DNA from: Cephalotus follicularis
Lineage: Eukaryota > Streptophyta > Magnoliopsida > Oxalidales > Cephalotaceae
Direction: 5' to 3'
Length of the DNA: 64,000 nucleotides
NCBI GenBank assembly: GCA_001972305.1
Contig: BDDD01002656.1
Span: 108,081 to 172,080, forward strand
Shown here piece by piece: positions 784 to 59,902 of this stretch. Every line of letters starts with the position of its first letter. Positions within the stretch are counted from its first letter, which is position 1. The notes beneath the pieces are model-generated. The model was not told the origin of the DNA, did not search any database, and saw only the letters and a list, made by a program, of their open reading frames with translations. Position numbers and translations under genes: made by a program.

Positions 784-1894
784 GGGGAATAGACTAATAA
801 AATTATACTAGCAAATAATCTAAGAAAACTCATTATCAATCACATAAATTCTGAATTTAAAGAGTGCAGGGTTGAGAGATTTGCAAACAGATATATAGTG
901 GTTCGGCAAACCGCCTACGTCCACTCCCCAAGGCCACCCCTTGAGTATTTAACTAGTGTGCCCCAACTGGGCTTGAAACTCCTACCGAGATTCAAAAACT
1001 TTCGCTTCAACCAAGCGATTACAGGTTTGCTCCCTCCGAGCTTGAACCTCCAACTGAGCTTCAATAGTTTTGCTTCAAACGATCGATATCACTCTTTGCT
1101 CCAACCGAGCTATACAAGAGACAACCTCTCTTGTTTACAAGTGATTGAATGTGTATACTGTTTTACAAAGTCAAAGAGACTTTGTTTACAATTTATCTCA
1201 ATACAAACAAAGCTCTAATGATATAAGTTAGAAGAATAAATTCTTTGTAATATGTAGAATTCCATAAAGACATTTCTTTGGCTATTGAAAGTGTTGTGGA
1301 TGTTGCCTTTTGGTTCTTGAAAGACTTGAGAACTTTCTCACAACTGACTTGAAGGAAATACCCCTTTATAGCTTATAAAGACATTCTCCAATGGATATAT
1401 TTTTAATAGTCAAAACCATTCCAGTCGAATGGACAATCTTGGCAGTCAGCTGGAGTTGATGGCTTGTATTTCAAATTATAGCCGTTGGTGCTGGCAGTCG
1501 CTGCTTTACCTAAATAGTCTGCTGGTGCTCTATTCCAGTCAGCTGGTGGAGGTAGTGAGGATTTCCAAAAAGCTATTGGAATAATTGGACAGTCAGCTGG
1601 CCATTCTGGGTAGTCGACTGTTTTACCTAGATAGTTGGCTGGAGCCTTACTCCAGTCAGCTAGATAAGGTGCCATTCCAGTTTCTGGGATTTCTTACATT
1701 TCAAGTCAGCTGCTCAAAATCAGATAGTCAGCTATTCATATTGGGCAGTCAACTATTTTGGTATGTACCTGAATTTTTACGCTTTGCAACACTTTGGACA
1801 TTATTTCAAGTATGTATATGAGTTTGTAAGTTAGAAAAATATGCATGCATGTATTCCATATTTGTTAATCATCGAAATATCAATCTTTAAAACA
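784..1894 (-). mobile_element. Copia LTR (N), minus orientation
   Basis: On the minus strand this LTR starts TGTTTTAAAG with the 'GATGATTAACAAA' box typical of many plant Copia LTRs. It ends toward 784 with an LTR tail running into the C-rich end, whose last ~34 bases lie in the reversed block. The segment 895-945 (TTCGGCAAACCG, TACGTCCACTC) matches the reverse complement of Copia LTR K near 33660-33702, which fixes family and orientation. About 1020-1110 has imperfect repeats of a CTCC-N-CCGAGCTTGAA type. It is probably the 5' LTR of the element whose internal part is scrambled in 1-783. No open frame here is credible as a gene. Confidence 0.72.
1422..1756. repeat. Phased CAGTCAGCTG/CAGTCGACTG palindrome array in LTR N
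   Basis: Twelve copies of a degenerate 10-bp palindrome (CAGTCAGCTG, TAGTCGACTG, CAGTCGAATG and others) start at 1422, 1443, 1495, 1515, 1536, 1590, 1611, 1632, 1653, 1703, 1725 and 1746. Spacings are 21, 52, 20, 21, 54, 21, 21, 21, 50, 22 and 21 bp. The spacers differ in sequence, so this is not a simple tandem repeat. The array lies about 150-470 bp inside the LTR's 5' end, where U3 promoter sequence is expected. Confidence 0.9.
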
Positions 1895-1924
1895 TTAAAA
1901 GGGGTGGCGAAGGCCAACACTCAT

Positions 1925-3535
1925 CGAAGGCACTGATGAACCCAACATCATCGAGGATGATGAGCCTGCCAGCTATCAGGAAGCAGTGTAGAGAACTGAA
2001 TCTGATGAATGTCTAAGAGCCATAAAATCCGAGATGGATTCCATGTATGCCAACCAAGTTTGGAACTTGGTTGAAGCTCCCATAGGTATAATTCCTGTCG
2101 GTTGCAAATGGATCTTCAGGAAGAAGAATTGCGTAGATGGAAAAATTGAGACATGCAGAGCGCGATTGGTTACGAAAGGGTATAGACAACGACATGGTGT
2201 CGATTATACCGCAACTTTCTCACCAGTCGTGATGCTCAAATCTATTCGGATATTGCTTACCATTGCTTCTCATTATGATTATGAGATATGAAAAATGGAT
2301 GTCAAGACTGCGTTCTTAAATGGACATTTTGAAGAGGACATTTATATGTCCCAACCCGAGGGGTTTACATCCAAGGAGTCGTCGTACATGGTGTGCAAGC
2401 TTTAAAGGTCAATTTATGGCCTAAAGCAAGCATTAAGAAGGTGGAACATACGTTTTAATGAGGCTATCAAGTCTTTTGACTTCATTAAAAATGTAGACAA
2501 GCCTTATGTCTACCGGAAAGAGGATGACTCATGTATCACTTTCTTGGTACTATATGTGGATGACATCCTACTCATTGGGAATGATATAGGGATGTTGGAA
2601 TCCATGAAAGTATGGCTTGTCAAGAACTTCTCCATGAAGGATTTGGGAGAAGCCTCCTACATACTGGATATAAAGATCTACATAGAGAGATCTAGTAGAT
2701 TACTTGCGGTTTCTCAAAGCCAGTACATCAGCAAAGTGCTGAAACAGAAAAGGGGCTTATTGCCAATAGGCCATGGAATTCAACTTTCCAACAAGATGTC
2801 CCCACAAAAATATGAGAAAAGAACACACATGAGTCGGATGCCTTATGCTTCAGCTGTAGGATCGATCATGTATGCCATGCTGTCTACTAGGCCTGATGTC
2901 GCACATTCCTTAGGAATGGGAAGTCGATTTCAGTCTACTCCTGGTTAGAAACATTGGGAAGTAGTCAAGGTGGTACTTAAGTACCTTAGAAAGACTTAGG
3001 ATGCTTTCTTGATCTACGGAGGAGATAGTGAGTTGATATTGGAGGGATACACTGACTCCAGTTACAATAGTGATCCGGATGATCACAAATCAGTGTCAAG
3101 ATATGTCTTTATCCTGAATGGCAGCGCGATTAGATGGAGGAGCTCAAAGCAGGAGACTAATGCAGACTCCACTACGGAAGCTGAGTATATTGCAGCCTCA
3201 GATGCTGCAAAGGAAGGTGTTTGTATGCAAAAGTTCATAACAGAACTTGGAGTGGTTCCATCCATTAGTTGTCCTATAGTGATATACTGTGACAATAATG
3301 GGGCTGTTGCACAAGCCAAGGAGCACAGGTCTCACCATCAATCCAAACATATCCAGTGGCATTATTACTTGATTCTTGAGATCATTGACAGATGAGACAT
3401 AGTTTTAGAGAGGGTTGCCTCAGAGGTAAATATAGCAGACCCACTGACCAAAGTTTTGTATAGCAATGTATTCGAGCATCATCGTAGTATGATGGCCTTG
3501 AACTATAGGTCTTCGTGGCTTGAGAGCTAAGTGGG
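1925..3535 (+). pseudogene. Copia pol fragment: reverse transcriptase and RNase H
   Basis: A decayed Ty1/Copia polyprotein 3' half. The RT (RVT_2 type) begins near 1935 and is clear from 2034 (NQVWNLVEAP, GCKWIFRKK, ARLVTKGYRQ). It continues through MDVKTAFLNG (2297), SIYGLKQA (2411) and the catalytic YVDDILLIGN near 2553. RNase H follows, with GYTDSSYNSDPDDHKS (3045), TEAEYIAAS (3175) and DNNGAVAQAKE (3292). Stops interrupt it near 2289, 2403, 2946, 2998 and 3393. Gag, protease and integrase are missing, and it abuts LTR N at about 1900. It leads directly into a purine-rich tract (AAGTGGGAGA, 3529-3538) and the family-A LTR at 3540, so it is the 3' part of a family-A Copia element. It is not functional. 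Confidence 0.93.
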
Positions 3536-3539
3536 AGAT

Positions 3540-4821
3540 TATTAGAGAGTGTGTGACCCATCAAGCCATGAGGTGGCTAGTTGTACTTGTACTCTGCTCA
3601 TTTGATATATAATTTTATTCTTTTAATGTTACTTTGTGCAATTACTTTTTTATTATGGCATACTATATATGTTTTATCATATAATTGAAGCACATTACTT
3701 GCTTACGTATATGGTGCCCAGTCACATCAAGGGTTGGATGTCGAGCAAAGGGCTATGAGAACGACTCCCTTATTACCTATGACTAAACCATTCCAAGTAA
3801 GAGGTTCACTTCGATAAGGCATTAGTGAACCGCTTAGACTTGCCGTGTTATGCTTGCTTCCATGAATGGGAGAGTGGAGTATCTCATTGCCACTTTGGTG
3901 GGACGATAAAGCTAATGCGGGGTGCGTGCTGGGAGCATGTACACTGAACTAGACCCACTATGGAAATCCTATTTGGATGGTCAAATATCCCGTGTAAGTA
4001 GAGTTTCCCATATGAGACAGTAATGTATAGGTTCTACGAGCCTAGCATGTCTTTGACGGTCTTGTCTAATCCTTAGACCTGAGTGGCTGCTCTGCATTAT
4101 GTAAAGATTGTTTGACTTTGATTTCCTCCCTACCCAGTCTTTCGTGGGGCTGGTAAACATGTAGCTTTTGGGTCTTATAGGATTTATGTGAATGTAAGAG
4201 AGTTCGCTAACAAGGAATCGTCACACCAGATGTGAAGGTGATTGGCTATATAGTATCTGTATTCATTGTGGACTTTTAAATTCCTGGCCAGGTTCAGGCA
4301 AGCTGGAACTTAGGGTTTCCGAAAAAGCTTGTCGATAGTCATAATGGTAATTACGGATTTAGAGATACTGGCAAATCTAGGGTTGACACATATCCTTACC
4401 TTATGCTACTATCGGAGTCGAGGATGATGAGGGATTATAGTACACGATAACTATCGTCAGGATAAAGTATCGGATATATCGGAAACGAACTTATATTGTG
4501 GGAATTAATTTGGGTTTAATTTACACGCCTAGAATATGTTGGTCATAATTTCAGGGTCTTAATATAGCCGGGGACTATTTTCGGTGACTTTACCTAAGTG
4601 CGTTGGAGCTATGGTAGTTTACCGATGTTACCGATTTTATTCCGGACTTTAGGGTCCCACCTCACGATGACATATATGGATACATGTCATTGTGTAATGA
4701 CATGTGAAAACACATGTCATCATGTGGTGTATTAGTGTATTAGGCGACTAATTAGTTGACATGTGTCAATTAATACACTAAAGGATTTTGGTAAGAAGAA
4801 TCTTCTGGATTCTTATATTTC

Positions 4822-4857
<36 letters not shown>

Positions 4858-8678: not shown

Positions 8679-8727
8679 TTCACTTAATTTCCGAGAAACT
8701 TATCCCAGCTTAGCATATATGGAATAT

Positions 8728-8739
8728 GCTCTGATACCA
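8728..8739 (-). promoter_or_regulatory. Primer-binding site, tRNA-iMet, element C
   Basis: GCTCTGATACCA on the plus strand is TGGTATCAGAGC on the minus strand, a perfect 12-base match to the 3' end complement of plant initiator tRNA-Met. It lies 4 bases inside the 5' LTR end at 8744. Confidence 0.93.
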
Positions 8740-10141: not shown

Positions 10142-10212
10142 CAGTCGACTGCCATCAAGAACCAGTCGACTGTTGGGTTGAGTAGTCGACTGCTTTGGGT
10201 GGCAGTCGACTG
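10142..10212. repeat. CAGTCGACTG array, 4 copies at 20-21 bp
   Basis: Palindromes start at 10142, 10163, 10183 (TAGTCGACTG) and 10203. Spacings are 21, 20 and 20 bp, with unlike spacers. Confidence 0.95.
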
Positions 10213-11246: not shown

Positions 11247-11305
11247 CAGTCGACTGCCTTCTTCACGTGGCAAACAGTCGGCTGTTCCCCTGTGACAGTC
11301 GGCTG
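11247..11305. repeat. CAGTCGACTG/CAGTCGGCTG array, 3 copies
   Basis: Copies start at 11247, 11275 and 11296 (spacings 28 and 21). This is the promoter-proximal cluster of the element C 5' LTR, at the same LTR position as the cluster at 25711-25836 in the solo copy. Confidence 0.9.
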
Positions 11306-11480
11306 TTTGGGTTAAAATTAGGGTTTCTAACCTTTGATACTTTACCAATTGCATATCAATTCACCCCAAACATTTACCAATCATAGAAATTAGTATAATT
11401 GGACAAATAACTCAAATAAAATGTATATTTTATTTCAAAAAATGGATCAATATACATTAATTGAAGTTACGGTTATTACA

Positions 11481-11975: not shown

Positions 11976-12090
11976 TGTAATATCCCGTTTTCGTCATATG
12001 TTATGTCACATGTTATAGGTGTTATGTATTTTGTTTCGGACCGTTTGATTTTGTTTTGAAAACTCAATTTTGTTTTTTTTTCTGGGCATT

Positions 12091-12240
12091 AAGCATCGAC
12101 GCCTGTGTTCTAAGCGTCGACGCCATAGTGTTGTGGTCTTTTGTGTTTCTTCCAGTATTGTAAACGTCGACACCTTGCTTTGACGTCGATGCTTTTGTGT
12201 AAAAGGGTTAGACGTTGACGCTTTGCATGACCGTCGACAC
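12091..12240. repeat. GCGTCGACGC palindrome array, cluster 1 of D 5' LTR
   Basis: Core centres (C of the central CG) are at 12097, 12118, 12168, 12187, 12216 and 12235. Spacings are 21, 50, 19, 29 and 19 bp. The same cluster in the 3' LTR has centres 22667, 22686, 22715 and 22734 (19, 29, 19). Confidence 0.9.
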
Positions 12241-12840
12241 TTAAGCCGTTCTTCCTTATCTGTTCTTGGATGGTGGCTTAGTTTTGGAAAGGAATTTTTG
12301 CCATAAAACTGATTATTTGATTTTCCTTTTATGTGGACGCGTTTTCTACTCAAATGGTAAGTTTTAGTCCAAACATTTTTGCCATAAAATTCACGATTTC
12401 ACTGTTTTAAAAAAGCTATCACCTGCATGTTAATACAAACCAGAAACACCATTATCTGTAGTGTTTTCAAACAACCATTTTCAATGTCTTTGCAATTTTT
12501 TTTAAAGGTATGCATGCTACTGATTTTCATTATCGGTTTATATTACTATTTTGATGATTGTTAAGCTATTAGATTGATCAAAGTTATGCTACTGATTCAT
12601 GAAAACTGTTTTAATCATATAGTTTGAGAAACCATGTTTTGAAAGTTTATGTTACTATGATCAACTTGAAAATCCATGTGTTCATACGTTTAAACTATTA
12701 TTCTTGTACTTGTCAATCATAAACGACATGTTTTAGACCCTGCATGTTACTGTTATATGATTTATGTTTAAGAAAATTTTATCTGTTCATGATTTCAACA
12801 GTTATAGCAGTGCAATTTTTTTTTTATATTTTTGACTTAA

Positions 12841-13105
12841 AGCATCGATGCCTATATAGTAAGCGTCAATGCCTCTGTATAGAAAAGCTGTTTAAAATGT
12901 CATGAATGAGTCTAAACGTCGATTGTCTTCGTTTTTCTATCGACGCTTATGCCTTAAATGTCGACGCCTTGTTTTGAGCGTCGACGCTTATGTCGTTAAT
13001 TGTTCTGTTTCTTCGACGCTTTGTTCAACGCTTTCATTGAGGCCTTGTGTTTAGACGTCAATGCCATGTTTAAGCGTCGACGCTTTTGTCCATAACGTCG
13101 ACGCT
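12841..13105. repeat. GCGTCGACGC palindrome array, cluster 2 of D 5' LTR
   Basis: Centres are at 12846, 12867, 12920, 12941, 12962, 12982, 13014, 13026 (weak), 13059, 13078 and 13099. Spacings are 21, 53, 21, 21, 20, 32, 12, 33, 19 and 21. One weak copy breaks the pattern. Confidence 0.9.
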
Positions 13106-14448
13106 TTCTTCTGGCAGTATGTATTTTTGTGTAATTTTATTTTATGATTCGATTTGGTTTGTATGTTTAGGGTATCGAAATACCTATGGTGAAGGTTAAG
13201 TCGTTTTTATGTCTACTTTTATTCCGTTCTAGTGTTTGATTAGATTTAATCGGCTAAGGTACGGATTCTTCGTTCTCGGTTTATTCCTTCGATTTTATCG
13301 AAATGATTTCAATGATAATTTTTGTACGGATTTATGTTTCAAATATTACTATCGATTTTATTCAGTTTGATAAATGAAATTGCAAATTTTATTTTGTTAA
13401 CTATTTTAATTATTTTTGGAATTAAGTGAGCATGACTTTCAATTTTGAAGGTATGTTGATATTTTATGGATATGATAATGATTTTGGATATATTTTGAAT
13501 TGTTTTTAGAATAGAACAATATTTTTGGAGTAATGACATACAGAGATATACGTACCTATGGGGTCCCATAGGCGTGTTCTTTGGCATAGAGGACATGACA
13601 CCTTCTATGGCGGTGTGATCAGTCTACGGCGTCTCTCATTGTTATTTTGATCACCTGAGTGTGATATTCGGATAGAGGCGGATGGGTCGACCCTAGTTTA
13701 TTATCGGATTCTGTTTTGGAATTTATTGTGTAGTGCCGTACACGTCGTTCCGTCGGAGCATGTGGGCATTGCGAACCCCTTGCATTTGTGTGTGTGTGTA
13801 TATATATATCGGATTCTCTGTGTGAAATTATTAAATCAAATTAAATTATGGAATTATAATATTATGGAATTTTGACATTTTGGAAATTTTGGAATATCGA
13901 TATTGGATAAAATTATGAAATTTTGGAATTCGGAAAATATTGAAATATTGAAATTTGGATATTATGAAATTTTATAACTGTTTTTAAATATAATGTTTTC
14001 ATTATGAAAGAAAATTTTATTTATGTTTTACATGAAATTGTTCATTTTTTTTTTAAAGTTCAGATATTTATGTATCTTTAAAATTACTGCCTATTGTTTT
14101 ATTTCCTATATCCGTACTGAGGTTTGCTCAGCCGTGTTTTGTTTTCCATGTGGCAGGTTTTCATGAGCGTCATAGGGATGTGTGATGAGAGGTGTCACTT
14201 TATGTCAGAGGATCACCTAGGATATTATCTTGTAGTGTTTTCAATTATGAGTTGGTGATGTGTATACTATTGTTTTGGAAAACAGTGTTTTGATTTTGTT
14301 TTGGAACTTATGTTTTGATTTCGGATTATGTTATTCTTATGTCAGTTCGGACCACCACGTTATTTGAAATAAAGTTAAGCACATGTTTTGATCAGTTTTG
14401 TATTATGACCTGTAAGCGCTCCCAACCGATCGGGGGTGTTACAGATTT

Positions 14449-22478: not shown

Positions 22479-24859
22479 TGTAATATCCTATTTCGTTGCC
22501 TATATGCTTGTTGTCATATGTTATGTCACATGTTATAGGTGTTATGTGTTTTTTTTTCGGATAGTTTGATTTTGTTTTGAAAACTCTATTTTGTTTTTGT
22601 TATGGGCATTAAGCGTCGATGCCTGAGCATTGTGGTCTTTCATGTTTCTTCCAGTATTGTAAACGTCGACGCCTTACTTTGACGTCGACGCTTTTGTGTA
22701 AAAGGGTTAGATGTCGATGCTTTGCATGACCGTCGACACTTAAGCCGTTCTTCCTTATCTGTTCTTGGACGGTGGCTTAGTTTTGGAAAGGAATTTTTGC
22801 CATAAAACTGATTATTTGATTTTACTTTTATGTGGACGCGTTTTCTGCTCAAATGGTAAGTTTTAATCCATACGTTTTTGCCATAAAATTCATGATTTTA
22901 CTATTTTTAAAATGCTATCACCTGTATGTTCATACAAACTAGAAATGCCATTATCTGCAGTGTTTTGAAACAACCATTTACATTGTCTCTGCCTATATTT
23001 TTTTAAGGTATGCATGCTACTGATGTTCATTATCGTTTTATATTACTGTTTTGATGATTATTAAGCGATTAAATTGATCAAAATCATGCTATTGATTCAT
23101 GAAAACTATTTTAATCATACAGTTTGAGAAACCATGTTTTGAAAGTTTATCTTACTATGATCAACTTGAAAATCCATGTGTTGATACGTTGAAACTGTTA
23201 TTCCGATACTTGTCAATTATAAAGGACATGTTTTAGAACCTGCATGTTACTGTTATATGATTTATGTTTAAGAAAATTGGATTTGTTCATGATTTCAACT
23301 GTTATAGCAGTGTGTTTTTTTTATATTTTCGACCTAAAGCGTCGACGCCTATATAGTAAGCGTCAACGCCTGTGTATAGAAAAGCTGTTTAAAACGTCGT
23401 GCATGAGACTAAGCGTCGACTATCTTCGTTTTCCAGTCGACGCTTATGCCTTAAACGTCGATGCTTTGTTTTGAGCGTCGACGCCTATGTCTTTAATTGT
23501 TGTGTTTCTTCGACGCTTTATTTAGCGCTTTCATTAACGCCTTGTGTTTAGACGTCAAAGCCATGTTTAAGCGTTGACGCTTTTGTCCATAACGTCGACT
23601 CTTTCTTCTGGCAGTGTGTATTGTTGTGTAATTTTATTTTGTAATTCGATTTGGTTTGTATGTTTAGGGTATCGAAACAGCTGTGGTGAAGGTTAAGTCA
23701 TTTTCGTCTCTACTTTTGTTCCATTCTAGTGTTTGATTAGATTTGATCGGCTAAGGTACGGATTCTTCGTTCTCGGTTTATTCCTTCGATTTTATTGAAA
23801 TGATTTCAATGATAATTTTTGTACGGATTTATGTTTTGTATATTACTATCGATTTTATTCTGTTTGATAAATAAAATTGCAAATTTTATTTTGTTAACTC
23901 TTTTAATTATTTTTGGAATAAAATGAGCATGACTTTCAATTTCGAAGGTATGTTGATATTTTATGGATATGATAATGATTTTTGATATATTTTGAATTGT
24001 TTTCAGAATAAAACAATATTTTGGAATCATGACATACACAGATATACCTACCTATGGGGTCCCATAGGCGTGTTCTTTGGCAAGGAGGACATGACACCTT
24101 CTGTGGCGGTGTGATCATTCTACGGCGTCTCTCATTGTTATTTTTATCACCTGAGTGTGATATTCGGATAGAGGCGGATGGGTCGACCCTAGTTTATTAT
24201 CGGATTCGGATTTGGAATTGATTGTGTAGTGTCGTACACGTCGTTCCGTCAAAGCATGTGGGCGTCGTCGAATTAAATTATGGAATTTTGACATTTCAGA
24301 AATTTTTGAAATTCGATATTGGATAAAATTATGAAATTTTGGAATTCGAAAAATATTGAAATATTGAAATTCGGATATTATGAGATTTTATAATTGTTTT
24401 ATAAATATTCTGTTTTACATTATCAAAGAATATTTTTTTTTATGTTTGACATGAAATTGTTAATTTTTTTAAAGTTCAGATATTTATGTATCTTTTAAAT
24501 TCCTGCTTATTGTCTTATTTCCTATATTCGCATTGAGGTTTGCTTAGACGCGTTTTGTGTTCAATGCGGCAGGTTTTCGGGAGCGTCATAGGGATGTGTG
24601 ATGAGAGGTGTCACTTTATGTTAGAGGATCACCTAGGAGATTATCTTGTAGTGTTTTCAATTATCTGTTGGTCATGTGTAGACCAGTGTTTTGGAAAACA
24701 GTGTTTTGATTTTGTTTTGGAACTTATGTTTTGATTTCGGATTATGTTATTTTGATGTCAGTTCGGACCACCACGTTATTTCAACTAAACTTAAGCACTT
24801 GTTTTGATAAGTTCTATATTATGACCTGTAAGCGCTCCCAACCGATCGGGGGTGTTATA
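22479..24859 (+). repeat. 3' LTR of element D
   Basis: Starts TGTAATATCC directly after a purine-rich tract (about 22466-22478) and ends GGGGTGTTATA before the GCACT duplication. Homologous along its length to 11976-14443, with an internal deletion near 24265. Palindrome clusters lie at 22612-22740 and 23338-23600 (centres 23343, 23364, 23398, 23417, 23438, 23459, 23479; spacings 21, 34, 19, 21, 21, 20). Confidence 0.93.
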
Positions 24860-24864
24860 GCACT

Positions 24865-25534: not shown

Positions 25535-25710
25535 TGTAATAACCGTAATTTTGAATTAATGTATATTGTACACTAGATGAATAAAATATGCATTTTATTG
25601 AGTTGTAATGTCCAGCTGTTATATGAATTATGGATATTGAATTATTTGGGGGGTTTGATTTGGAATGAAAATGGGGAAATAAACTTAAGGAACCATAATC
25701 AGCACCTAAT

Positions 25711-25850
25711 AGCCGACTGTCACAGGGTAACAGTCGACTGGTTGGTTTATGGTAGAACAACCGACTGTCACAGGGTAACAGTCAATTGGTTGGTTTATGG
25801 AAGGACAGTCGACTGTCACAGGGTAACAGTCGACTGGTCTGGCTTAGACA
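25711..25850. repeat. Three ~48-bp repeats, each with two CAGTCGACTG-type palindromes
   Basis: Palindrome centres are at 25714, 25735, 25762, 25783, 25810 and 25831. Within each unit the two are exactly 21 bp apart; between units 27 bp. The spacer within a unit (TCACAGGGTAA) is conserved here, so this part is a true tandem repeat. Confidence 0.93.
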
Positions 25851-26738: not shown

Positions 26739-26851
26739 CAGTCGAATGTTGAGCCTAACAGTCTACTGTTCAATGTAAACAGCCGACTGTTAAGGACAAA
26801 CAGTCGACTGCTCAATGTAAACAACCATCTATTCTTATGAACAGTCGACTG
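26739..26851. repeat. CAGTCGACTG array, 6 copies at 20-21 bp
   Basis: Copies start at 26739, 26759, 26780, 26801, 26822 (weak, CAACCATCTA) and 26842. Spacings are 20, 21, 21, 21 and 20 bp. Spacers differ apart from CAATGTAAAC, seen twice. Confidence 0.93.
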
Positions 26852-31227: not shown

Positions 31228-31492
31228 GTTTGAAGGTAGACCTCAGTACTTGAAGGAAAGACCTTAGTGCTTGAAGGAAGGCCTCAGTGCTTGAAGGCAA
31301 GACCTCAGTACTAAAAGGCAAACCTCAGTACTTGAAGGCAGACCTGAGTGCCTGAAGGCAAGACCTCAGTACTTGAAGGCCGACCTCAGTACTTGAAGGC
31401 GAACCTCGGTACTTGAAGGCAAACCTCGGTACTTGAAGGCAGACCTTGGTACTTGAAGGCAGACCTTAATGCTTGAAGGCAGACCTCAGAGG
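31228..31492. repeat. Minisatellite, ~20-bp unit, about 12-13 copies
   Basis: Imperfect tandem copies of AGACCTCAGTACTTGAAGGC with substitutions (TTAGTGC, CGGTAC) and 1-2 bp length changes. Confidence 0.93.
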
Positions 31493-31724: not shown

Positions 31725-32150
31725 GAGAGATAACTTGTAGGACTCACTGTCTGGATGAACTTACAAGGGACATGAATTGTGTGAGATAACTGTAAGGACC
31801 CCGTGTGGTGGTTGTCTTAACAGACAAGTCCTCTCGAAGAGATAACTTGCAGGAGCCACTTTATGGATGGACCCGAGGTACACCAACTATGACAGATAAC
31901 TGTGAGGACCCCATGTAATGGACTAGCCTTAAAGGGGAGATGGCCTGCATGACCCACTGTCTGGATGAACCTACGAGGGACACCGATTGTGGGAGATAAC
32001 TGTAAGGACCCTGTGTGGTGGCTGTCCTAATAGACAAGCCCTCTCAGAGAGATAACTTACAGGGCCCTCTTTATGGATGGACCCGAGGTACACTGACTGT
32101 GAGAGATAACTGTAAGGAACCTGTGTAACTCTGAATATCCCAGACTACTC
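31725..32150. repeat. Two direct ~213-bp repeats
   Basis: 31725-31937 and 31938-32150 align throughout (CACTGTCTGGATGAAC, TTATGGATGGACCCGAGGTA). Each holds two or three copies of GAGATAACTGTAAGGACC, so an older ~105-bp half-unit is likely. Confidence 0.85.
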
Positions 32151-32615: not shown

Positions 32616-33871
32616 TGTTGACATTTATATGTTACAATCCTTGTTTTGATGATAACAAAACACCTAACATGTTTTTTGAATGTGAAGGAATCTCTAACAA
32701 AGTTTACATGCAATGTAAGAAATCTAAAACTTGCACATCAGTCAGTTTGGCATCAACGTCTAAGATTTAGGCCTCAACATTCTGGGAATAAGTACATGTT
32801 CTGGGCTTGGAAAGATTATCCTCATAAACGTGATCTTTATCCACATCAATGTACTGGGAAACTTATGATTTACGTCAACGTCATGAGGAAAAATGTCAAC
32901 GTCAAAAGGTGATAGTGGCTTGGATGTTAACGTAGAAAACAAGTGGAGTCAACACCTTGTCTATAGACGTCAACGCAAATGGTGCACATTTTGGACAGTA
33001 GGTTTAGACGTTAACGCAAAGACATTATGCCGCCAACATCTTGTCTCTATACTTCAACGCCATGGATGCGCGTCAACGTAAATAGAAGTGAAGATGAATA
33101 AGAGCTTGGAGTATCAACGCAGAAAGCCACAGGAGTTAACGCATAAGGAGATAGACGTCAACGCCATGCATACACGTCAACGCCAGTGACAGCCATACAT
33201 GAAATCTGCAAAAATTGAAGGTGTTGAAATGGTGTGATCCTTTCCATACTTAATTCAAACGGCTCTCTGACGATTTCCGGTCTCTAGCAACGGTAAAATT
33301 CATCTAAAGGATATAAATAGAGGCTCAAACCATGAATAAAAAATCAAGTGAGAATCAAGCAAAGTATCAAGCAAAACTTACAAGTGTTCTTAAGAGATTT
33401 TATTCTTGTAACATCCTTTGATATTGTTTATGAATATCATTTTCATATACAACCTTTTAGAGGAGAAAGAAAACACAAACACACAACCTTTTATTTTTGT
33501 AACCCAAGGTCGTTAGTACTTTACTCAAAAGTTAGGATTTAGATTTGAAAATCCGACTTAGAATTTAGCTCGCAAAAATTCAAGTTTGGATTCATCTTGT
33601 AAAAATCCAGAATCGCTATTTGTGATCGGGGGATTACATTCTAGTGGAACCTCAAATGTGGCTTGGGAGAGTGGATGTAGGCACGGTTTGCCGAACCACT
33701 ATAAAATAGTTTGCATCTCTCTTCTCTTATTCTTTACTTATTTGCAAATTATTTTATTGTCTTGTGTGCTTTTGATTGATATTATCATTGTGTTTTTAAA
33801 TTTTTTAAAATGGTGGTTATTTTCGTCATAACCAATTCACCCCCTATCTTGGTTGCTTTTGTGTACCAACA
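32616..33871 (+). mobile_element. Copia solo LTR K, TSD TTTGA
   Basis: TGTTGACATT...GTGTACCAACA, 1,256 bp, with TTTGA at 32611-32615 and 33872-33876. The start has the TTTTGATGATAACAAA box of Tork-like Copia LTRs. The segment 33661-33702 matches LTR N in reverse complement. TATA-like GGATATAAATAG is at about 33309. The array of GTCAACGC motifs at 32750-33185 lies just upstream of it. Confidence 0.93.
32750..33185. repeat. Phased GTCAACGC array in LTR K
   Basis: Core centres are at 32754, 32775, then 32847, 32876, 32897, 32928, 32950, 32971, 33012, 33034, 33055, 33074, 33115, 33137, 33159 and 33178. Spacings are 21, 72, 29, 21, 31, 22, 21, 41, 22, 21, 19, 41, 22, 22 and 19 bp. The core is GTCAAC/GTTAAC rather than GTCGAC. 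Confidence 0.9.
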
Positions 33872-35224: not shown

Positions 35225-35226
35225 AG

Positions 35227-38585: not shown

Positions 38586-38956
38586 GCACCCAATTTTTCC
38601 GATTCGGCAGTTCGATCTATGATTTATCATTCATGGACGTTGATAAGATCCTTCCATTTAGCAGCACCTTAGGATGGCATAACCTTAATAAATAATACAG
38701 TTTTGTGGAGTTGAAGTGAAATATCCAAATATATGTCTTTTTTTTTTTCTTTCAATAATCCATATTTATAGCAATAAAATACTATTCTTCCTTCCCTAAG
38801 CGCTCAATGATTGATTACAAATAGCTATTAGAACCTTTATTCTCTACTTTATTCTCTATAAGGGACCAGAAAATGTTGATCAAAAACGGAATAAAAGTAA
38901 TCCTAGTTACAAAATATGGCAAAAATCTGAACTTTCTATTTATGCTGCAGAGGAAG

Positions 38957-39345
38957 ACGTCGACTTCTTCTGAAAGGTGTCGACTTCTTTGTGTAAAAAT
39001 CGCGACTTTCTGATATGCGAGTGAAAGGCGTCGACTTCTTCTGTGAAAGACGTCGACTTCTTTTGCTCCAAAAGTTACAGGTCGAATTGGCATAAAGACG
39101 ACGATGTGAATGTCGAAAGATGTCGACTTCTTTCTGAAAGGCGTCGACGTGTTCAAAAAGACATCGATCTCTTGTTCATAGCTCTTTTGAAGATTGTTAC
39201 ATTTTCCAGAAAAGACGTCGACTTCCAAAGAAAGACGTTGACTTCTTTTCTCCAACCCAGAAATGTCATCGATGCTTATGAAAGGAGTCGACTTCTTTGA
39301 TGTAAACCCAGAAAAAACGTCGACTTTTAAGTAAAGACGTCGACG
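38957..39345. repeat. Phased GTCGAC array in element I
   Basis: Motif (A/G)GACGTCGACTTC; GTCGAC centres are at 38961, 38981, 39032, 39054, 39083 (weak), 39124, 39145, 39165, 39219, 39239, 39270, 39289, 39321 and 39341. Spacings are 20, 51, 22, 29, 41, 21, 20, 54, 20, 31, 19, 32 and 20 bp. The array sits about 200-600 bp from the 5' end of the element on the minus strand. Confidence 0.9.
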
Positions 39346-39557
39346 CTTTTGGTCTGTTTTCTGCAGAATTTGGCATTTCTTCAATCTTTACACTTTAAGC
39401 TCCAATTTTGCACACTTTTGGGTAGTATTTTTGCACTTTGGTGATTTAATACTTGTACCTGAAAATCATTAAAACACAACCAAAGTAGTCTATTCCAAGC
39501 ATAAAAATATCACAAATAACGCATTAAAATCAATACATTTTTATGCTAAACAACCGA

Positions 39558-40378: not shown

Positions 40379-42908
40379 TGTAACACCCCCGACAGTGGGA
40401 ATGCTTACAGGGACAAATATCAGAACTAAACAAAACATAACAGAACATAAAACTCAACTTCACTAAAAAACATAGTGGTCTAAAACATGATCTAGAACAT
40501 AATCTGAAAATCATAAGCCAAAACCGTAATCCAAAAAGCATAATATTGTTCAAAAGACTGGCCCAAAACATGACCATAACACTACTGAAAACACAAGCGG
40601 ACCAATCTCCTAGATGATCCTCAAATATAGGTAGACATCTCTCATCACACATTTCCCCGATGCTCCTGATAACCTGCCGCATGGAAACAAAAACGCGCTT
40701 GAGCAAACCTCAGTACGGATAAGGAATGTAAAACAGTAAATAGAAATTTGATAGATAAAAAAATATCTAAACTTTAAAATCAGAAAATAGCATAATTAAA
40801 TATTCTTTGTAATGTAAAGCAGAATATTTAAATAAAACAGTTATAAAATCTTCATAACTTTCCGAATAGCATAGTATCATCATTTTCTGAATAACATAAA
40901 TTCATAATTCATACCTTTATCTGATTTCATAATTCCATACAGAGATCTGATCTACATAAATAATATTGAAGGAGTTCGCGAGGCCCACATGCCAAATGGA
41001 ACGACGTGTACGTCACTACACAACCAATTCCTAAAATCTGAATCTGATAATAACTAGAGTCAACTCATACGCCTCAAATGGATCCATACCCCACCCTCAG
41101 GATATATATAGAGAGAGATGTCGTAGACCGATCACACCGCTACGGTAGGTGTCATGTCCTCCATGCCAAAGAACATGCATATGAGACCTCATAGGTAAGT
41201 TTTTCTCTGTATGTCATTAATCCAAAATATTGTTTTATTCCAAAACAATTTAAATCATAAACAAATTTTTTGAACATTTTTTGAACATTTTTTGAACATA
41301 TTATGTCATAAAATCAACATACTTCCAAAAATGAAAGTCATGTCCGACTAAATCAAATCAACATACTTCCTAACGTGAAAGTCATACTCGTTTAACATAC
41401 TTCGATAGTGAAAGTCATGTTCGTTTAATCAAAATCAGCAAACCTTCGAAAGTGAAAGTCGTACTCAACATACTTTCGATAGTGAAAGTCATGCTCTAAT
41501 TATAAAAATCAGTAATATTATACTTTATTCTCAAAGTAATAAAAAATACTTTATAAAACCGTAGTAAATATCCGATAACGAAAATCCGTACTATTCATGA
41601 ACCAAAGGAGTATCAAATAACGAAGACTCCATACCAAAAGCAATATTGAATCCTTTTCAATAAAATCAGAGAATAGCCAAGAAACGAGAAATATCCATAC
41701 CTTAGCCGTTTGAAATCTAAACAAATTCCGAATACGAAACAAAAGCACACTTGTAACACTCTAAGCTCCACCACATATGTTACAATACTCTAATCAGATT
41801 AATCCAAACATTACCACAGCGAAAATAACAAACTGCCAGAACAAAGCATCGACGTGTATGTCAAAAGCGTCGACGTGCATGTCAAAAGCGTCGACGCTTA
41901 ACGTAGGGCATCGACGGTTTCGACACAGCAAAGCCCAAAATACTAATCAAAGAGTCGAAGAACAATATGAAAATCCATGACATAAGCGTCGACGTTCAAA
42001 TCAAAGCGTCGATGTTTAAGTCATAAGCGTCGACGCTTACGATAGGCGTCGACGCTTTACGTCGAAAACATGAAAAACACAGTATTATCTCAGTTGAAAA
42101 CCATGAACAAAATCCCAATTTCTTAAACACAAGTCATAAACAACAATGTGCAGGTTCTGAAACATAGTTATTAAGTTTGTAAACGTCAGTATACATATAT
42201 CAATGCATGAACATATACAAGTTACAAGTTACATATATCAATAACAACTTGAAGACATATTTTTATGACATCTTAGAAGTTTGCATGGATTAATAGCTGG
42301 GTTTTGCATAAAATAAACTTAGTTTCAGCAATATATATGATGAAAACAATGATCAGTAATATCATACCAGAATTTAACAAGAAGACAGTGCAGAAAACGA
42401 TTGCAAAAAGTTTGTTTTCAGTTTTGTAACATATATAGATAATGCAATGACTTTTAAAGAGATTAAAGGCAAAAACGTGTGTTCTAAAGATAGATTCGGT
42501 AGAGTAAAACATTTCCTTTGATGCAAAAATGCGTCCAAACAAAGAAGGAAAAACCAGATAGCAAATTATGGCTCAAATTTCCTTTTCATAAGTAAGCCAC
42601 CGTCCAAACAAAATAGGAAAGCCGACTTAAGCATCGACAGTAAAGGAAAAGTGTCAACGCTTACCCCTTTGAAAGCCAAAAGCGTTGATGTCAAAAGTTT
42701 GGGCGTCAACGCGTTTCATCTCGAAAACACGATGAAATCACAATGCCAAAGCATTGACGCTTATGTTGAAGGCGTCGACGCTTAACGCCTAGAAAAATAA
42801 AAACAAAGAGTTTCAAAAATAAAATCAAATGGTAAAACAATCATAGCATATAAAAGAAGACATAACACATAACAATAAACACGTTATGCCAAGAAACAGG
42901 ATATTACA
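40379..42908 (-). mobile_element. Solo LTR J (element D family), TSD TTGCA
   Basis: TGTAACACCCCCGACAGTGG...AACAGGATATTACA on the plus strand, that is TGTAATATCC...GGGGGTGTTACA on the minus strand; TTGCA at 40374-40378 and 42909-42913; 2,530 bp. Homologous to the LTRs of element D. Palindrome clusters: 42633-42780 (centres 42635, 42655, 42686, 42707, 42755, 42776) and 41848-42064. An extra set of direct repeats (CGAAAGTGAAAGTCAT type, about 41330-41490) is present. Confidence 0.95.
41848..42064. repeat. GCGTCGACGC array, cluster 2 of LTR J
   Basis: Centres are at 41850, 41871, 41892, 41912, 41956, 41990, 42010, 42031 and 42050. Spacings are 21, 21, 20, 44, 34, 20, 21 and 19 bp. Confidence 0.92.
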
Positions 42909-42913
42909 TTGCA

Positions 42914-48120: not shown

Positions 48121-48289
48121 AACCCACAGGAAAATAAGGAATTAAAGGTGGAATCCTCTACAGACACAATTGGGATTTTAGTCCAATCTGAGATGGAATC
48201 TCAGTAAGACACTTCTCACTTGAGGAAATCAGGCAAGGTTTCAACAGCACATGAGAGAAACAGGGTTTTCTCAATGAAGGTATTGACGA

Positions 48290-49835: not shown

Positions 49836-49844
49836 GTGGGAGAT

Positions 49845-54327: not shown

Positions 54328-56161
54328 CGTTAGATTGGAGTGTCCCTGCAAGCCAAGAGGTGGCTGCATCCATTTGTATTTTAAATATGATACACCATTT
54401 GTCCACACATTCTTAGTTCAATTCATGTTTGATAGTGCATATTAAGGAAACATTAGCATTTTGCTATATTTATTATCCCAAACCGCTGATACGGATCAGT
54501 TAATCACCATGTTAACTGAATACACATACAACGCCCTGTAGTGCGAGGGGTTGGATCTCATGCCTGAGAGGTTATGAAAATGAGATCCTTACTCCCTTTT
54601 GACAAAAGTTCCAAGTCATAGGTTCACTTTCTTAGGGCAATTGATGAACCGTAAAGACTTTCCATGCTATGCTTGCTCCCGATGTTGGGGAGGCTGGATT
54701 ATCTCATTGCCATTTAGGTTTACCCTAAAGATGATGCGGGGTGCGTGCAAAAGGCATGACATTGAACTGAACCACCATAGGTTATCTAGTTGGAGAGTCA
54801 ACACCTCTGTCAATAGAGTTCCTATTGTCTCGGTAGTGTATAGCCAAAGGTGGTTAGTAGGCCATACGTGACCTGCGTTTTGTCCTTAGACCTGAGCAGC
54901 TGGCATGCGTTGTGTAGTAACCGCTTGGCTTTGATTTCTGCTTTCCCCAGCACTAGCCATGTGCTGGAAAAAGGGTTGTCTTTGGGCCTTGTGGGAGCTA
55001 CATTGAGATGTATGGGCGAGTACACCAGATGGGATCATCACACCCGTGTTGAGGGTTATAGGCTCTATAACATCTATGACCATTGAAGACTTAAAGTCAT
55101 GGCCAGCCACTTGGGAGATTGGAAACAAGTGGTTTCCTGGGATGTCTCTTGATAGTCTCAGTGCGTTCGTACAATTATAGTTATTGCGGCTTTACCTAGG
55201 GTTTACAGTAATCCAAACCCTAGGCCATGGTCAGAGTTGAGATGATGAGGGATACACGACACATAAACCGAAGACTGTTAAGAAAGTACAGGTTATACGG
55301 CTAACATATGATAGATGTGGTGCTTTGGTCCATGGATCCGGGGGTGATTGGAGATCACACTAGGGCTATTTAGATGGTTCGAAGACTATTGGGATGGTAG
55401 TACCAGAACTTTGGGATGTTCTGGGAAACATATCATTGGACCAGAATCCAACCTAACTTTCAGGTCCCGCCTGATTTTGGAACGGGTTGATGTGTGAGTG
55501 ATACATGTCATTTAGTGAGAGATTGGCATCTAAGAGAGATGTTACTTTGCTAGTGAACATTTTATTTGCTGCACATACGTAACTTCATTATAAGTGAGTT
55601 CATGCATCGCCATAATAGAATGTTCCGCGCAAAGGATTGTTTGTGAAAACTTTAAGTGCATTGGGCATTTAATTAAAGATAGTGCAAGTGGGCTTTGAGG
55701 CATTTTGGGCTTGGGACATACTTCCCATTGTGGGCCAAAATTTTGGCTTTACTATGCCTTGAATTGGGCATTTGCATTTGCAAGAGAATGCTTAGCCCAA
55801 TTGTTATTACATAGCCTACAATTGTTGACTTTTCAACCATGAGAATGTCACTTGCTTTTGGGCCTTTTGTGGGCATTGCACCTGACACATTTTGGCATGC
55901 CTTTGGCTAGCCATATGTGAAGAAATGGAGAGGAATGGTGAGTCACTAAAGCATATGAGAAGTTTTAGTGGTGAGTCTTTGACTAGTCTTGCATGTGAGT
56001 CATACTTAGGATATTTTGAGTAAGCTTACTTAACACACTTCACCTATTCTCTCTTCCTTTCACCTATGCGTTTTCTCTCTTCTCTTTTCTCCTCTCCATT
56101 GTCATGAACATGGTCCTCCATTGACGAACTTGGTAGAGCTTTGAAGCTATTTGAGAGAAAA
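54328..56161 (+). mobile_element. Family-A Copia 5' LTR (L4), first part
   Basis: Starts CGTTAGATTGG (T to C at the first base), then GTGTCCCTGCAAGCC. Aligns with the LTRs at 43281 and 49845 to about 55620. Interrupted at 56161 by LTR G (duplication GAAAA) and continued at 62234. Confidence 0.87.
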
Positions 56162-57360
56162 TGTAACAACCCGCATTAATTTTGGATAAATTGATGTTTG
56201 GGCCTCGGGGAAAATTTTTCTTTTCTCCTTGGTTGGTTTCAGCTTGGGCTTGGTGGCTTAAGGCCCATTGGACATGTGTTAAATAAAGAGTGAAGGGATA
56301 AAGAGAAGATATTTTGTGTGGTGCCTTGGGAAGAGTGTGAATCTTCTTCAGGAAGTTTTAATAGTTGGTGGCAGTTGACTTTGGCAAATGTGAGGGTTAG
56401 ATTTGCTCATTTCAATTAGTTCATGTTGGAAGGAGCAGTTGCTGAAGATTTCTTTCTTCCTTTCTTCTTTCTCCTTCTTCATTCTCCCTGAAGCTTCGTT
56501 CGTCATCTGAGGTTGGAACGTTCTTGTCGTCTACACGTTTAGCCAGGTGAGTGTTCTCCTCAGTTTGGTTATGGTGTGAAGCTTCGATGGTAAAGTAATG
56601 GTTTGTGAAGCCGAGGAAGAGCTTGGTTGTGGTTCTTATACATGTGTGTGATACATTCATGTTCCTTGGACTTTTGTTCATAGTTATGGCTAAGCTGTGT
56701 GTGTTGATTTTGTAGAGGTGGATCCATGCGCGGAGTCCGTATAGCAGGGAAGCTAGCGGAGTACTGCAGGTACTAGTGAGTGGGATGTTTCCTTTTCTAT
56801 CAATTGATACTGAGAGTCTATACTTTTTATATGCTTTTCATGATATTGTCTTTGACCAGGATTCTTCTCCTGTTGTCTTGTTGGTTATTGCATGTGAATA
56901 CTATTTTCGAGCAGAGTTACTTGATGTCTTGGGTTGATGTGTTTCCGTTGTTGTTGAGTAGTCATGCTTTCTTAATATCATGTGTTGTTTCCTCGGATAC
57001 TAGTTACTAGTACTTGGATGTGAATGAGACGCATTATGGGTGATAGAGGAGTGGGCGTTCGATTCCAATTCCACTCAGCAGTTCCATTGTCTATGATGAG
57101 CTATTGGGTGTGACTGTGCCTGGGTTCCATACCCGGATCTGCTCATTTCATTGGACTATGATGAAATGTTGCGTGGGAGAAGCCGAGGATCCGCTACTTC
57201 TTCGGTCAGGCCATGATGGAGTCCTCGAACACGAGATTGCCAGCCCGAGATGTCTAAGTGGTGATACTCTTACCTCTAAGCCGAAGTTCTCCTCTGTCAT
57301 CTCGACATGGGTGGAGCCGAGCGGTGATTAGTGGGCCCCTTGGACGATATTAGCGCTATA

Positions 57361-57545
57361 TGATTGTCGGCGAGGTAGCTCCTCGATTGATGTTCATATG
57401 GTGTGGTACTGAACTCGTGATTACCGACAAGGGTGGGCTTGCGTAGCCCCTCGATCGATGTTCATATAGTGAGGTGCGCCAACATGTGATTGCCGATGAA
57501 GGAGTGCTTGCATAGCCCTTCCATCGATGTTCATACGGTGCTCTG
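57361..57545. repeat. Three tandem repeats of ~57-69 bp in LTR G
   Basis: Units start at 57361, 57418 and 57487 with TGATTGCCGA, then AGCCCCTCGATCGATGTTCA and TATGGTG. Confidence 0.88.
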
Positions 57546-58439
57546 GAAGTGGGTATCTATATGCATATATGAGGGATGTGTAAAGTCCTGTAGCCCATGA
57601 CCTCGCTGATGTGGCTCTACCGGAGCTGTTGCTTGTGTTTGCGGATGTGGTTCCGGCTATGGAAATGTGAGTATGATGTGCGCATCCATGTTTCGGGTAT
57701 GTGCATGTGATTGATACAATACCAGTAGTCCTCTTTATCATTGTGATCCTTGGAGTCTTGATCATTTTGTTGATCCTCGGATCCTCGGCATATCTTTATT
57801 ATAACTTGTTATTACTTCCTTGAGGTTAGTCATTGTGTTTGGTAACTCTGATGTCTCCTTGGACTCTTTATTTCTTTGATATTTATGTACATGTTCACCT
57901 CTGCTTTATCCTTGGTGAACAATGGATATGTGGTGTCCTCGGTCCAGTGGGTCATGGCACGTTTGTTTTTTTCTTAGCACCCAGTGGTTGTGGGTTGCTT
58001 GGGAATTTCCTTGATCTTACTCACTAGCCAGTTGGACTAATCCCCTCTCAGTTTTGTGTGCAGAGGAAGTAGGGTTGTAGAGTTCTTAAGATCCACATAG
58101 AGAAAGCGTGTTGGTTATGGTAGACGTCTGATGCAAGCACCTTAGGATGGCTCCTCGGCCATGCCCGACCTTCATACATTTTGGGGCACTCTTGGGGGGT
58201 TTTGTATAGATTTTGTAATGTATAAGATCTGTAACTGTAACGCCCGAATTTTTTACACAAAGTAATATTTCAATTTTATTGAAATATTATTATTGAGTTA
58301 ATGAGAATGGCATAAATTTTGACTTAAATGATGCTTCCAAAATTTAAAAGGTTAGATTTTGGAAGAAGGAATAATGGAGATGTTAAAGAAATTCAAAAAG
58401 ATGCAATTAGAGGCAAAATGGCGCAGTTTTGGACTAAAC

Positions 58440-58585
58440 GCATCGACGTCTTTGTAAAGACGTCGACGCCTATGGGAACTAGGGGCGCACATAAATGCAT
58501 GCACATGAACGTCGATGCAGACGAAGGCATCGACGCCCTTGTACGAAAGAGGAAAAGACATCGACGTCTAAATAAGACGTTGACG
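58440..58585. repeat. GTCGAC array, cluster 1 of LTR H
   Basis: Centres are at 58444, 58464, 58513, 58531, 58562 and 58581. Spacings are 20, 49, 18, 31 and 19 bp. Flanks vary (CATCGACGTC, CGTCGACGCC). Confidence 0.9.
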
Positions 58586-59357
58586 TCTTAAAAAAAGGGA
58601 TATCAGTCACGTTATGAACTGACAGAATAACGTGCAAAAGGGGGGTAATTCTGGCTTGTTGCAGGCACCTTGGGACGCGAAGTGGGACGTGTTGGGCATG
58701 CATAATAGCCTCCTGACCTACATGAATGAAGAAGGAAGAAGAATGTGATAAATGTTGGTATGCATGCAACCTGCAAAAAGGAAATGAGAAGGAAACAAAA
58801 GGGGAATGAAGGAATTGTATAGGGAGGAGGGAGAGAACACGAGAGTGTTCATTTAATGCAGAGAGAAAGAGGGGGAGGGATCCATCTGCATAAGAACCAC
58901 CACATCCCCACCCCTCTCTCTCGTTTAAAACACCTAAGGAGAAGAAAGAAAGAAACAGTGAGTGTGAAGAGGGAGTTCCACCATTACTGGACCAGTGGAG
59001 CTTGGGGAAACTTGGAGCTGGAAGCTTGCAGCAACGGGACAACCTTGGAGCTGTTGTGGACAATGCTTGGAACACAAAGAGGTGGACTTTCAAGGTTTCT
59101 AACTTGAAACCACAGGTAGGGGAAGTATATGTACACTTTTGAGTTCAAGCTAATGTTTTGCCATGAATAAAATGCATGAATTGCATGCCTGTTTTGGAGT
59201 GGATTTGGATGTTAGTTTGATAATATGAACACCTGGTTGAGTGGACTATGCATGCATGTTGAATTCTGTATGAATCCCGTGTTAGACTGCATGTATTATT
59301 GGATTTTATGTTCCTGTTTGGTTGTCGTATGAAAGAGAAAGCGTTCTGGACTCTTAG

Positions 59358-59902
59358 ACGTCGATGCTTTTGAGATAAGCATCGATGTCTTCATGCGGTG
59401 AGGCAATAGACGCCAACGTCTTAGTTAAGCATCGATGTCTATTTCAACCATTTGCAGAACTGCAATGTTTGCCTCTGGACTTGTGGACTTTGATGGATTA
59501 ATGATTTAGTTATACATAAAATAATTGTTGTGCGTGTTATGCCGTAAGTGGTGTAACTGGGAAGTGCATGTGTGGATGGAGGATGGATTCTTCCTTGACA
59601 TGGAGTTTGGTCGAAGTGATACCTCCTGGTACCACTTAAACATCGACGTCTATGGAAGGCATCGACGTCTTTGGTTGCTATGCATTGGGTCTTGCACATA
59701 ACGCGAGGACGTGTTAAGGTTCCTACCTTAAAACGTCGATGCGTTGTGATGAACATCAACGCCTAAGGGTTTTGGCTTGAAGGCATCGACGCCTACAAGA
59801 AAATGTCGACGCGATTCGTACTGTTGCAAGCACTGACCTTGAAGATAAACCTCGACGCTTTTGGGGCAATGAACATCGACGCGTTGAGGAAAGACATCGA
59901 CG
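59358..59902. repeat. GTCGAC array, cluster 2 of LTR H
   Basis: Centres are at 59362, 59383, 59414, 59433; 59644, 59663; 59737, 59757, 59787, 59807, 59853, 59877 and 59898. Spacings within groups are 21, 31, 19; 19; 20, 30, 20, 46, 24 and 21 bp. Confidence 0.88.

Follow-up and report, generated by a model that had tools for sequence, protein, structure and literature searches.

Long terminal repeat (LTR) retrotransposons of the Albany pitcher plant Cephalotus follicularis, a carnivorous member of the Oxalidales, carry dense arrays of a short palindromic site with the core GTCGAC. The arrays were studied in a stretch of 64,000 nucleotides of the 1.58 Gb genome (contig BDDD01002656.1, positions 108,081 to 172,080 of the forward strand), referred to as the window, and in samples of the same genome. 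The observation is real and genome-wide, and its new part is the occurrence of one core in the Copia as well as the Ty3/gypsy LTRs of a single genome, together with a near-helical spacing of the sites. The arrays are read here, with moderate confidence, as binding arrays upstream of the retrotransposon promoters, in which a dimeric factor would recognise the sites from one face of the DNA. This reading results from the dyad symmetry of the site, the spacing close to one helical face, the conservation of the sites against CpG decay and, in several elements, their place before TATA-like boxes.

Arrays with the GTCGAC core had been described in an earlier note on this DNA for the elements labelled N, K, I, C, D/J and H, and all of them are present. 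With a threshold of at most two mismatches to the family motif (at most three for the 12-mer), the array regions of the window contain 8 sites in N, 8 in K, 13 in I, 12 in H and 7 in C, the D and J LTR copies contain 13 each, and 11 sites are found both in a C-like copy at 25.7–26.9 kb and in a further family at 58.4–59.9 kb. The exact hexamer occurs 47 times in the window, where dinucleotide composition predicts 5.2 occurrences and a maximum-order model 30.3. The survey beyond the window is based on a 200 kb sample of twenty 10-kb stretches taken at round coordinates (L009–L028), extended by five further 10-kb stretches to a 250 kb sample (25 in total). Each of the 10 contigs sampled has an I-type match, and the sample is thus blind to position, not to contig. 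In the 200 kb sample GTCGAC occurs 114 times, which is 7.4 times the 15.5 expected from dinucleotides, the highest such ratio among the 64 palindromic hexamers, and 1.5 times the expectation of the maximum-order model. At least one copy is present in 24 of the 25 stretches. Arrays of three or more sites number 42 in the 250 kb sample, whereas order-1 Markov controls give 0.3 in the same length, and the LTR of L017 (contig C17) contains 17 sites within one array. Among other hexamers of L009–L028, TCCGGA is rarer than expected (4 occurrences, 24.6 expected) and GACGTC is commoner (47, 15.5 expected).

Window and sample together provide 56 arrays, which form 20 clusters by flanking sequence; some of these clusters are two arrays from one LTR family, so there are fewer families than clusters. 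Both Copia and Ty3/gypsy elements are represented, in agreement with the earlier claim that unrelated LTR families have the arrays in common. Pfam domains were used to distinguish Copia from Ty3/gypsy in D/J, I, L021, L027, L017, L026, L010 and L025, with K excluded; the names Tekay and Athila, as well as Copia for K, come from the earlier note. The D/J element is Ty3/gypsy (RVP_2, RVT_1, SH3_Tf2-1), as are L021 and L027, and in these three the arrays are located within the direct repeats on either side of the coding part. Array I is situated upstream of minus-strand open reading frames (ORFs), one of them with RVT_1. L017 is a Copia element (Retrotran_gag_2, Pol_BBD, gag_pre-integrs, rve, SH3_retrovirus), L026 is another (RVT_2), and Copia domains lie near arrays in L010 and L025. 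A protein of L017 matches CFOL_v3_00635 of Cephalotus follicularis with 100% identity over 81% of its length. The sequence of array N is 66–68% identical to L017/L012. Paired arrays are frequent in gypsy-type LTRs, e.g., at window 11976–14441 and in L013, L022 and L023, and 13 of the 36 distances between neighbouring arrays measure 785–1142 bp. An assignment to CACTA subterminal repeats (a transposase ORF is present in L033) was rejected, as some 6 kb separate the array from this ORF and the sequence around the array looks LTR-like by eye.

The unit of the arrays is a dyad of about 10 bp, as can be concluded from the pairing of the bases outside the hexamer. Among 114 sites, which include related copies, the bases at offset 1 pair across the dyad with a frequency of 0.73 (0.37 expected) and those at offset 2 with 0.48 (0.32 expected), values found in 0 of 1000 shuffles in each case. 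The flavour of the flanks is family-specific; the core and the spacing are common to the families. As a correction to the palindrome of the earlier note, the sites of K and N are imperfect dyads, with eight of eight pointing one way in each array. The words enriched at 20–21 bp from a GTCGAC are mostly transitions of the core: they include, besides GTCGAC, GCCGAC (73-fold), ATCGAC (27-fold), GTCAAC (27-fold) and ACCGAC (15-fold), with the transversion GGCGAC at 12-fold (4 cases), and CTCGAC and GTGGAC were not seen at this distance. In a promoter family formed by L034, L035, L037 and L038, the centre of the site is CA, TG, TA or CG. Such variability would suit a dimer in which the central step is flexible.

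The spacing between the sites is close to whole turns of the helix. Exact GTCGAC pairs in the 250 kb sample number 0 at 7–18 bp, 31 at 19–22 bp and 6 at 23–40 bp, and the closest are 19 bp apart. Genome-wide pair counts, which follow copy number as well as families, were set against those of the reversed word CAGCTG (given in brackets), and amount to 218,599 (3,942) for distances of 6–36 bp. Pairs near whole turns outnumber half-turn ones, with 7,931 (146) at 30–32 bp versus 964 (153) at 35–37 bp, and 26,369 (407) at 50–52 bp versus 1,424 (88) at 55–57 bp; the counts are 1,643 (338) at 24–26 bp and 6,357 (291) at 45–47 bp. The 40–42 bp bin was left out because sums of two 20–21 bp steps fall there. 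The near-helical spacing proposed earlier is therefore upheld, including the excess near 21, 31 and 52 bp that had been named beforehand as its test. The 6–36 bp pairs listed all come from contig C1, within its first 358 kb, and include homologous ones; 82 of 100 lie at 19–22 bp, 10 at 27–28 bp and 3 at 12–13 bp; of the exceptional gaps mentioned in the earlier note, 12–13 bp does occur, but 27–28 bp is recurrent rather than a mere exception. Consecutive gaps of 23–110 bp between exact sites of window and sample are in phase with 10.25–10.5 bp (p 0.0025–0.004) and out of phase with 20.5 bp. When each homologous interval is represented once (about 18 gaps), the exact sites stay nominally significant (median p 0.025–0.04); this deduplication replaced a coarser one, which gave no periodicity signal (median p 0.215).

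The sites are also conserved between diverged copies. In 137 alignments at 60–72% identity, each read both ways, 78% of the CpG within GTCGAC (n = 157) and 31% of the CpG outside it (n = 4,764) are kept. The whole hexamer is preserved for 57% of GTCGAC, for 9.6% of the remaining CpG-containing hexamers and for 14.6% of those that lack CpG. Among five pairs of different insertions chosen by hand, the CpG is kept in 54 of 59 GTCGAC and 17 of 26 other RYCGAC, and for 125 of 248 other CpG. In homologous arrays the sites are 0.94 and the spacers 0.65 identical. The length of the interval between sites has changed in 21% of 68 site intervals and in 33% of 4,057 controls, and changes of at least 3 bp occur in 0 of 68 and 7.8%, respectively. 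These 68 intervals were picked for sites at both ends in both copies and the aligner can favour placing site on site, so that the conservation effects are upper bounds. Between the two LTRs of single elements (four pairs, from the window, L017, L021 and L027), CpG is kept in 22 of 26 GTCGAC, 32 of 36 other RYCGAC and 197 of 276 positions elsewhere. The 54 of 62 array-type CpG kept in such pairs are suggestive, in few cases, and perhaps reflect a protection from methylation in the germ line.

The place of the arrays before TATA-like boxes is seen in individual cases. Such boxes occur 12–130 bp downstream of the LTR arrays K, N, I and L017 (Table 1 for K, N and I). In L017, the end of an array is followed after about 17 bp by TTTTATAAACC, then by a leader and by the ATG of a 370-residue ORF of the PF20167 family, which lies 3′ of the Copia integrase region (L017:1612–2721). 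The order in L026 is the reverse transcriptase region, four sites (gaps 21, 53, 21 bp; at most three mismatches) and the PF20167 ORF (L026:1797–2825). For 5 of 150 PF20167 matches elsewhere (L034–L038), 1 kb of upstream sequence was taken, and four of these five loci have a K-type array whose last upstream site is followed after 14–33 bp by a TATATA box; three of these four show one more site just downstream of the box. The gaps before the ORF are 31, 50, 19, 31, 41, 19 and 43 bp in L038 and 19, 31, 50, 50, 41, 19 and 43 bp in L035. The ATG of the ORF is present in L034, L035 and L037, with an early stop in L035, and missing in L038. L036, the fifth locus, is not included in the count of four; its C-like array looks like part of an inserted LTR. 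PF20167 looks very abundant in this genome, with 13,073 loose candidates at a first look, of which 150 were scored and all matched. Elsewhere, a sunflower Athila element has been described whose additional ORF at the 3′ end is similar to PF20167 and has a predicted nuclear signal (PMC11728184).

Table 1. Arrays, LTRs and TATA-like boxes in the window, in window coordinates
Feature	Position	Strand	Details
TATA-like box of array N	1371-1379		GCTTATAAA (reverse strand)
Array N	1443..1755	-	8 CAGTCAGCTG-type sites; LTR related to L017 Copia element
C LTR, second array	10142..10212	-	4 CAGTCGACTG-type sites; gaps 21,20,20
C LTR, first array	11247..11305	-	CAGTCGACTG/CAGTCGGCTG; LTR start ~11480 on - strand
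5′ LTR of D/J Ty3/gypsy element	11976..14441	+	TGTAATATCC..GGGGGTGTTA; ends approximate
D LTR, first array	12093..12240	+	GCGTCGACGC type; gaps 21,50,19,29,19
D LTR, second array	12842..13104	+	gaps 21,95,20,32,64,21
3′ LTR of D/J element	22479..24857	+	ends approximate
J LTR, first array	22613..22739	+	gaps 50,19,48
J LTR, second array	23339..23601	+	gaps 21,53,21,21,20,32,64,21
C-like LTR (start 25535), first array	25710..25836	+	gaps 21,27,21,27,21
C-like LTR, second array	26739..26851	+	gaps 20,21,21,41
Array K	32872..33183	+	8 ACGTCAACGC-type sites, single orientation; gaps 21,74,41,43,19,85,19
Box near array K	33312..33320	+	TATAAATAG; ~130 bp downstream of array K
TATA-like box near array I	38936..38944	-	CATAAATAG (reverse strand); ~12 bp from array I
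Array I	38957..39346	-	13 ACGTCGACTT-type sites; spacers partly homologous
H LTR, second array	41846..42055	-	GCGTCGACGC type; gaps 21,21,20,78,20,21,19
H LTR, first array	42651..42781	-	gaps 52,48,21
Array of GACGTCGACGTC type	58439..58587	+	gaps 20,67,31,19
Second array of GACGTCGACGTC type	59357..59904	+	

A 20-bp tandem repeat of 12.9 copies at window 31230–31489 has a unit of about two turns and a sequence unrelated to the arrays; it is followed by a 210-bp repeat at 31741–32118.

In the mechanism proposed for the arrays, a dimeric factor would recognise the 10-bp dyad through the GTYRAC core, with its central pyrimidine-purine step, and through the family-specific flanks. Neighbouring dimers would be bound at distances of mostly 2, 3 or 5 turns, approximately on one helical face, and dimers in such an arrangement could cooperate or present one surface. 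The arrays would activate transcription. The array before the extra 3′ ORF of the Copia elements probably serves a second, internal promoter. The factor could be encoded by the host or by an element, the PF20167 protein being a candidate by position only. The interpretation given in the earlier note thus stands for the spacing, the sharing across families and the divergence of the spacers, and the host factor among its suggested readers stays a possibility beside an element-encoded one.

Several observations weigh against the arrays as promoter-upstream binding sites. Gaps of 27–28 bp (2.6 turns) and of 45–47 bp are common, the latter as a partial exception to the whole-turn rule, and irregular gaps occur in L034 (37 and 35 bp) and L037 (56 bp). 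The mean vector of the exact-site gaps is longest at 10.75–11 bp, not at 10.5 bp, and the periodicity of degenerate sites, taken once per homologous interval, is not significant (p 0.115–0.5). K and N have their sites in one orientation only, and L034, L035, L037 and L038 are one homologous family. Long gypsy LTRs often contain two arrays 0.8–1.15 kb apart, the second of which may lie downstream of the promoter. TATA[AT]A shows no excess at the edges of the 56 arrays (0.9–1.8 per kb within 20–120 bp, 2.2–2.7 beyond 200 bp), and a general rule that places arrays next to TATA boxes was therefore dropped and kept for the individual cases; one composite TATA pattern of five tried occurs 7 times outward and once inward at 20–120 bp, uncorrected for the choice. 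The confidence is slightly lowered because the Sirevirus primer binding site (PBS) is missing from several loci, the gaps are irregular and the orientations of K-type sites are uneven.

A similar anatomy is known from Sireviruses of the Ty1/copia lineage. Bousios et al. 2010 (PMC2829016) describe palindromic repeated motifs (RMs) with 8–32 element-specific dyad copies, located in the LTR upstream of the TATA box and again upstream of the gene at the ENV position; they find no common site for a single factor and call the RMs Sirevirus-specific relative to classic Ty1/copia. Multiple AGGGGGAG tracts before the 3′ LTR and the PBS TATCAGAGC are given there as Sirevirus hallmarks. The Cephalotus Copia arrays fit this anatomy. 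The Vitis RM CGGTCGACCG contains GTCGAC (PMC2829016). Among the Cephalotus elements of either lineage, at least eight palindromic copies per element are reached in N, K, I, the D LTR and L017 (counts above), and extra arrays lie upstream of the PF20167 ORF, a putative counterpart of the ENV-position gene, in L017, L026, L034, L035, L037 and L038, the last four seen over 1 kb. Two or more AGGGGGAG tracts are found in L017, L026, L012 and L018, one in L025 and none in L010 and L031; only in L017 and L026 are they placed before the 3′ LTR. In the 250 kb sample the tract occurs 20 times against 2.4 expected by composition. The PBS is present in L025 and L031 and was not found in L017, L026, L010, L012 and L018, so that L017, L026, L012 and L018 are candidate Sireviruses only. 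The Cephalotus arrays differ from the RMs in their GTYRAC core, with CGG-CCG mostly missing and CGG met only in the CAGTCGGCTG variant (Tnd-1 is also described without the CGG-CCG core in PMC2829016), and in their occurrence in the Ty3/gypsy LTRs of D/J, L021 and L027, outside the stated distribution. The near-helical spacing was measured in Cephalotus, and a spacing analysis was not met in the accessible portions of PMC2829016. A literature search, with most subscription journals outside its reach, found neither the sharing of a core across lineages nor near-helical spacing in print, and gave no match for YYGTCGACAT or for CAGTCGACTG with retrotransposon.

The strongest alternative, though an unlikely one, is an element-encoded protein, e.g., the product of the PF20167 ORF or of another extra ORF, which binds its own motif against silencing, as the VANC proteins of VANDAL transposons do. 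The differing flanks would then mark diverging paralogues, and the gypsy families would use the factor in trans. Such a view is favoured by the family-specific flanks with a common core and spacing, by the arrays in front of PF20167 ORFs, where the ORF type and the flavour of the motif both vary, and by the apparent abundance of PF20167. The L017 protein begins with MASKRRKS, perhaps a nuclear signal. According to PMC5735166, VANC targets are arrays of motifs in non-coding parts of the element, which resembles the dense non-coding arrays of short motifs in elements with an extra ORF described here, and VANC6 acts also on an unrelated element. In the same paper, the VANC21 motif YAGTATTAY forms tandem repeats in one orientation, with its density essentially confined to the one DNA-transposon family that encodes the protein, unlike the Cephalotus arrays in 20 clusters of Copia and gypsy. 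Most arrays are also without a detectable PF20167 ORF nearby: tblastn with 120 relatives of one type found it at two loci (L017 and L026) of the window and L001–L038. A search of PDB sequences with the PF20167 protein did not reveal a DNA-binding fold or any convincing match, only weak ones to PilJ (E 0.09).

Host factors of the DREB/CBF (AP2) type are an improbable reader of the sites. The specificity of CBF is RYCGAC, and AP2 domains bind as monomers. The RYCGAC core occurs in several families, and GCCGAC, ATCGAC and ACCGAC are enriched at 20–21 bp where CTCGAC and GTGGAC are not seen; the former three are also plain transitions of GTCGAC, and GTCAAC is enriched as well (27-fold). The hexamer GTCGAC itself is the C-repeat/dehydration-responsive element (CRT/DRE) listed in PLACE as CRTDREHVCBF2, the preferred sequence of barley HvCBF2 (PMC4222965, PMC4553201), and the parts available of these two sources mention neither arrays nor spacing. 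In contrast to the CRT/DRE, the promoters of L034 type have GTCAAC, GTTGAC and GTTAAC, all without CGAC, and RYCGAC is likewise absent from the K arrays. The arrays of GTTAAC and GTCAAC weaken DREB/CBF as the sole reader, and the paired flanks point to a dimer.

An ordinary tandem duplication of 20–21 bp, with the regular spacing as a remnant of the repeat unit, is very unlikely. The identity of spacers within the same array is 0.41 (42 comparisons), near the 0.375 between different loci (1,344 comparisons) and the 0.33 of shuffled letters, which, together with the 0.94 against 0.65 identity in homologous arrays, agrees with the earlier statement that the spacers are mostly non-homologous while the sites stay. 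A clear exception is element I, with spacers alike at 0.5–0.9, where tandem duplication may have a part; outside this element, homologous units that include the spacers, as in a tandem repeat or satellite, were not found. The 21-bp duplications with homologous spacers that the earlier note named as a refuting condition are thus not borne out, except in part for element I. Genome-wide pairs of the K-type site CGTCAACG are in the same orientation in 12,217 cases (control 49), convergent in 1,576 (0) and divergent in 1,173 (3), and the same-orientation excess, about fourfold above random orientation, would suit duplication. The distance of 19–22 bp is kept in opposite orientations as well, which speaks against it: among the places listed, it is found in 67 of 100 same, 44 of 50 convergent and 24 of 50 divergent pairs, with 28–31 bp in 23 of 100, 1 of 50 and 20 of 50, respectively. 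Loss of units from a 21-bp repeat would not be expected to leave gaps of three and five turns, and such gaps, commoner than half-turn ones and out of phase with 20.5 bp, also argue against duplication; simple tandem duplication was rejected for most families on account of the divergent spacers and the odd-turn gaps. Least likely of all are silencing targets, either in a 21-nt small interfering RNA register, to which the two-turn spacing is near, or for a host repressor that recognises the elements, given that conservation of the sites between element lineages is unexpected if they harm the element and that recurrent gaps of 19, 30–31 and 50–51 bp misfit one strict 21-nt register. LTR palindromes of maize Sireviruses have reportedly been linked to the epigenetic response of the host.

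A wider interpretation, somewhat unlikely and offered tentatively, is that a single dimeric DNA-binding activity has control over a large part of the LTR-retrotransposon load in this plant. Copia elements would carry the code in their LTRs and before their own extra gene, and Ty3/gypsy families would have converged on it or captured it, in a shared control circuit. For the motif clusters of Sirevirus LTRs, reported in 2010, no reader was known, and the Cephalotus arrays cross the divide between Copia and Gypsy. More than 200,000 close GTCGAC pairs are present in one genome, and their regular spacing is open to a DNA-binding experiment. If the wider interpretation is true and the factor is the PF20167 protein of the Copia elements, retrotransposons would have their own counterpart of VANC self-recognition, acting in trans for other families. 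Such a system would illustrate how one regulator comes to be shared among unrelated parasites of the same genome, and the additional 3′ ORF found in some retrotransposons of plants would gain a testable role.

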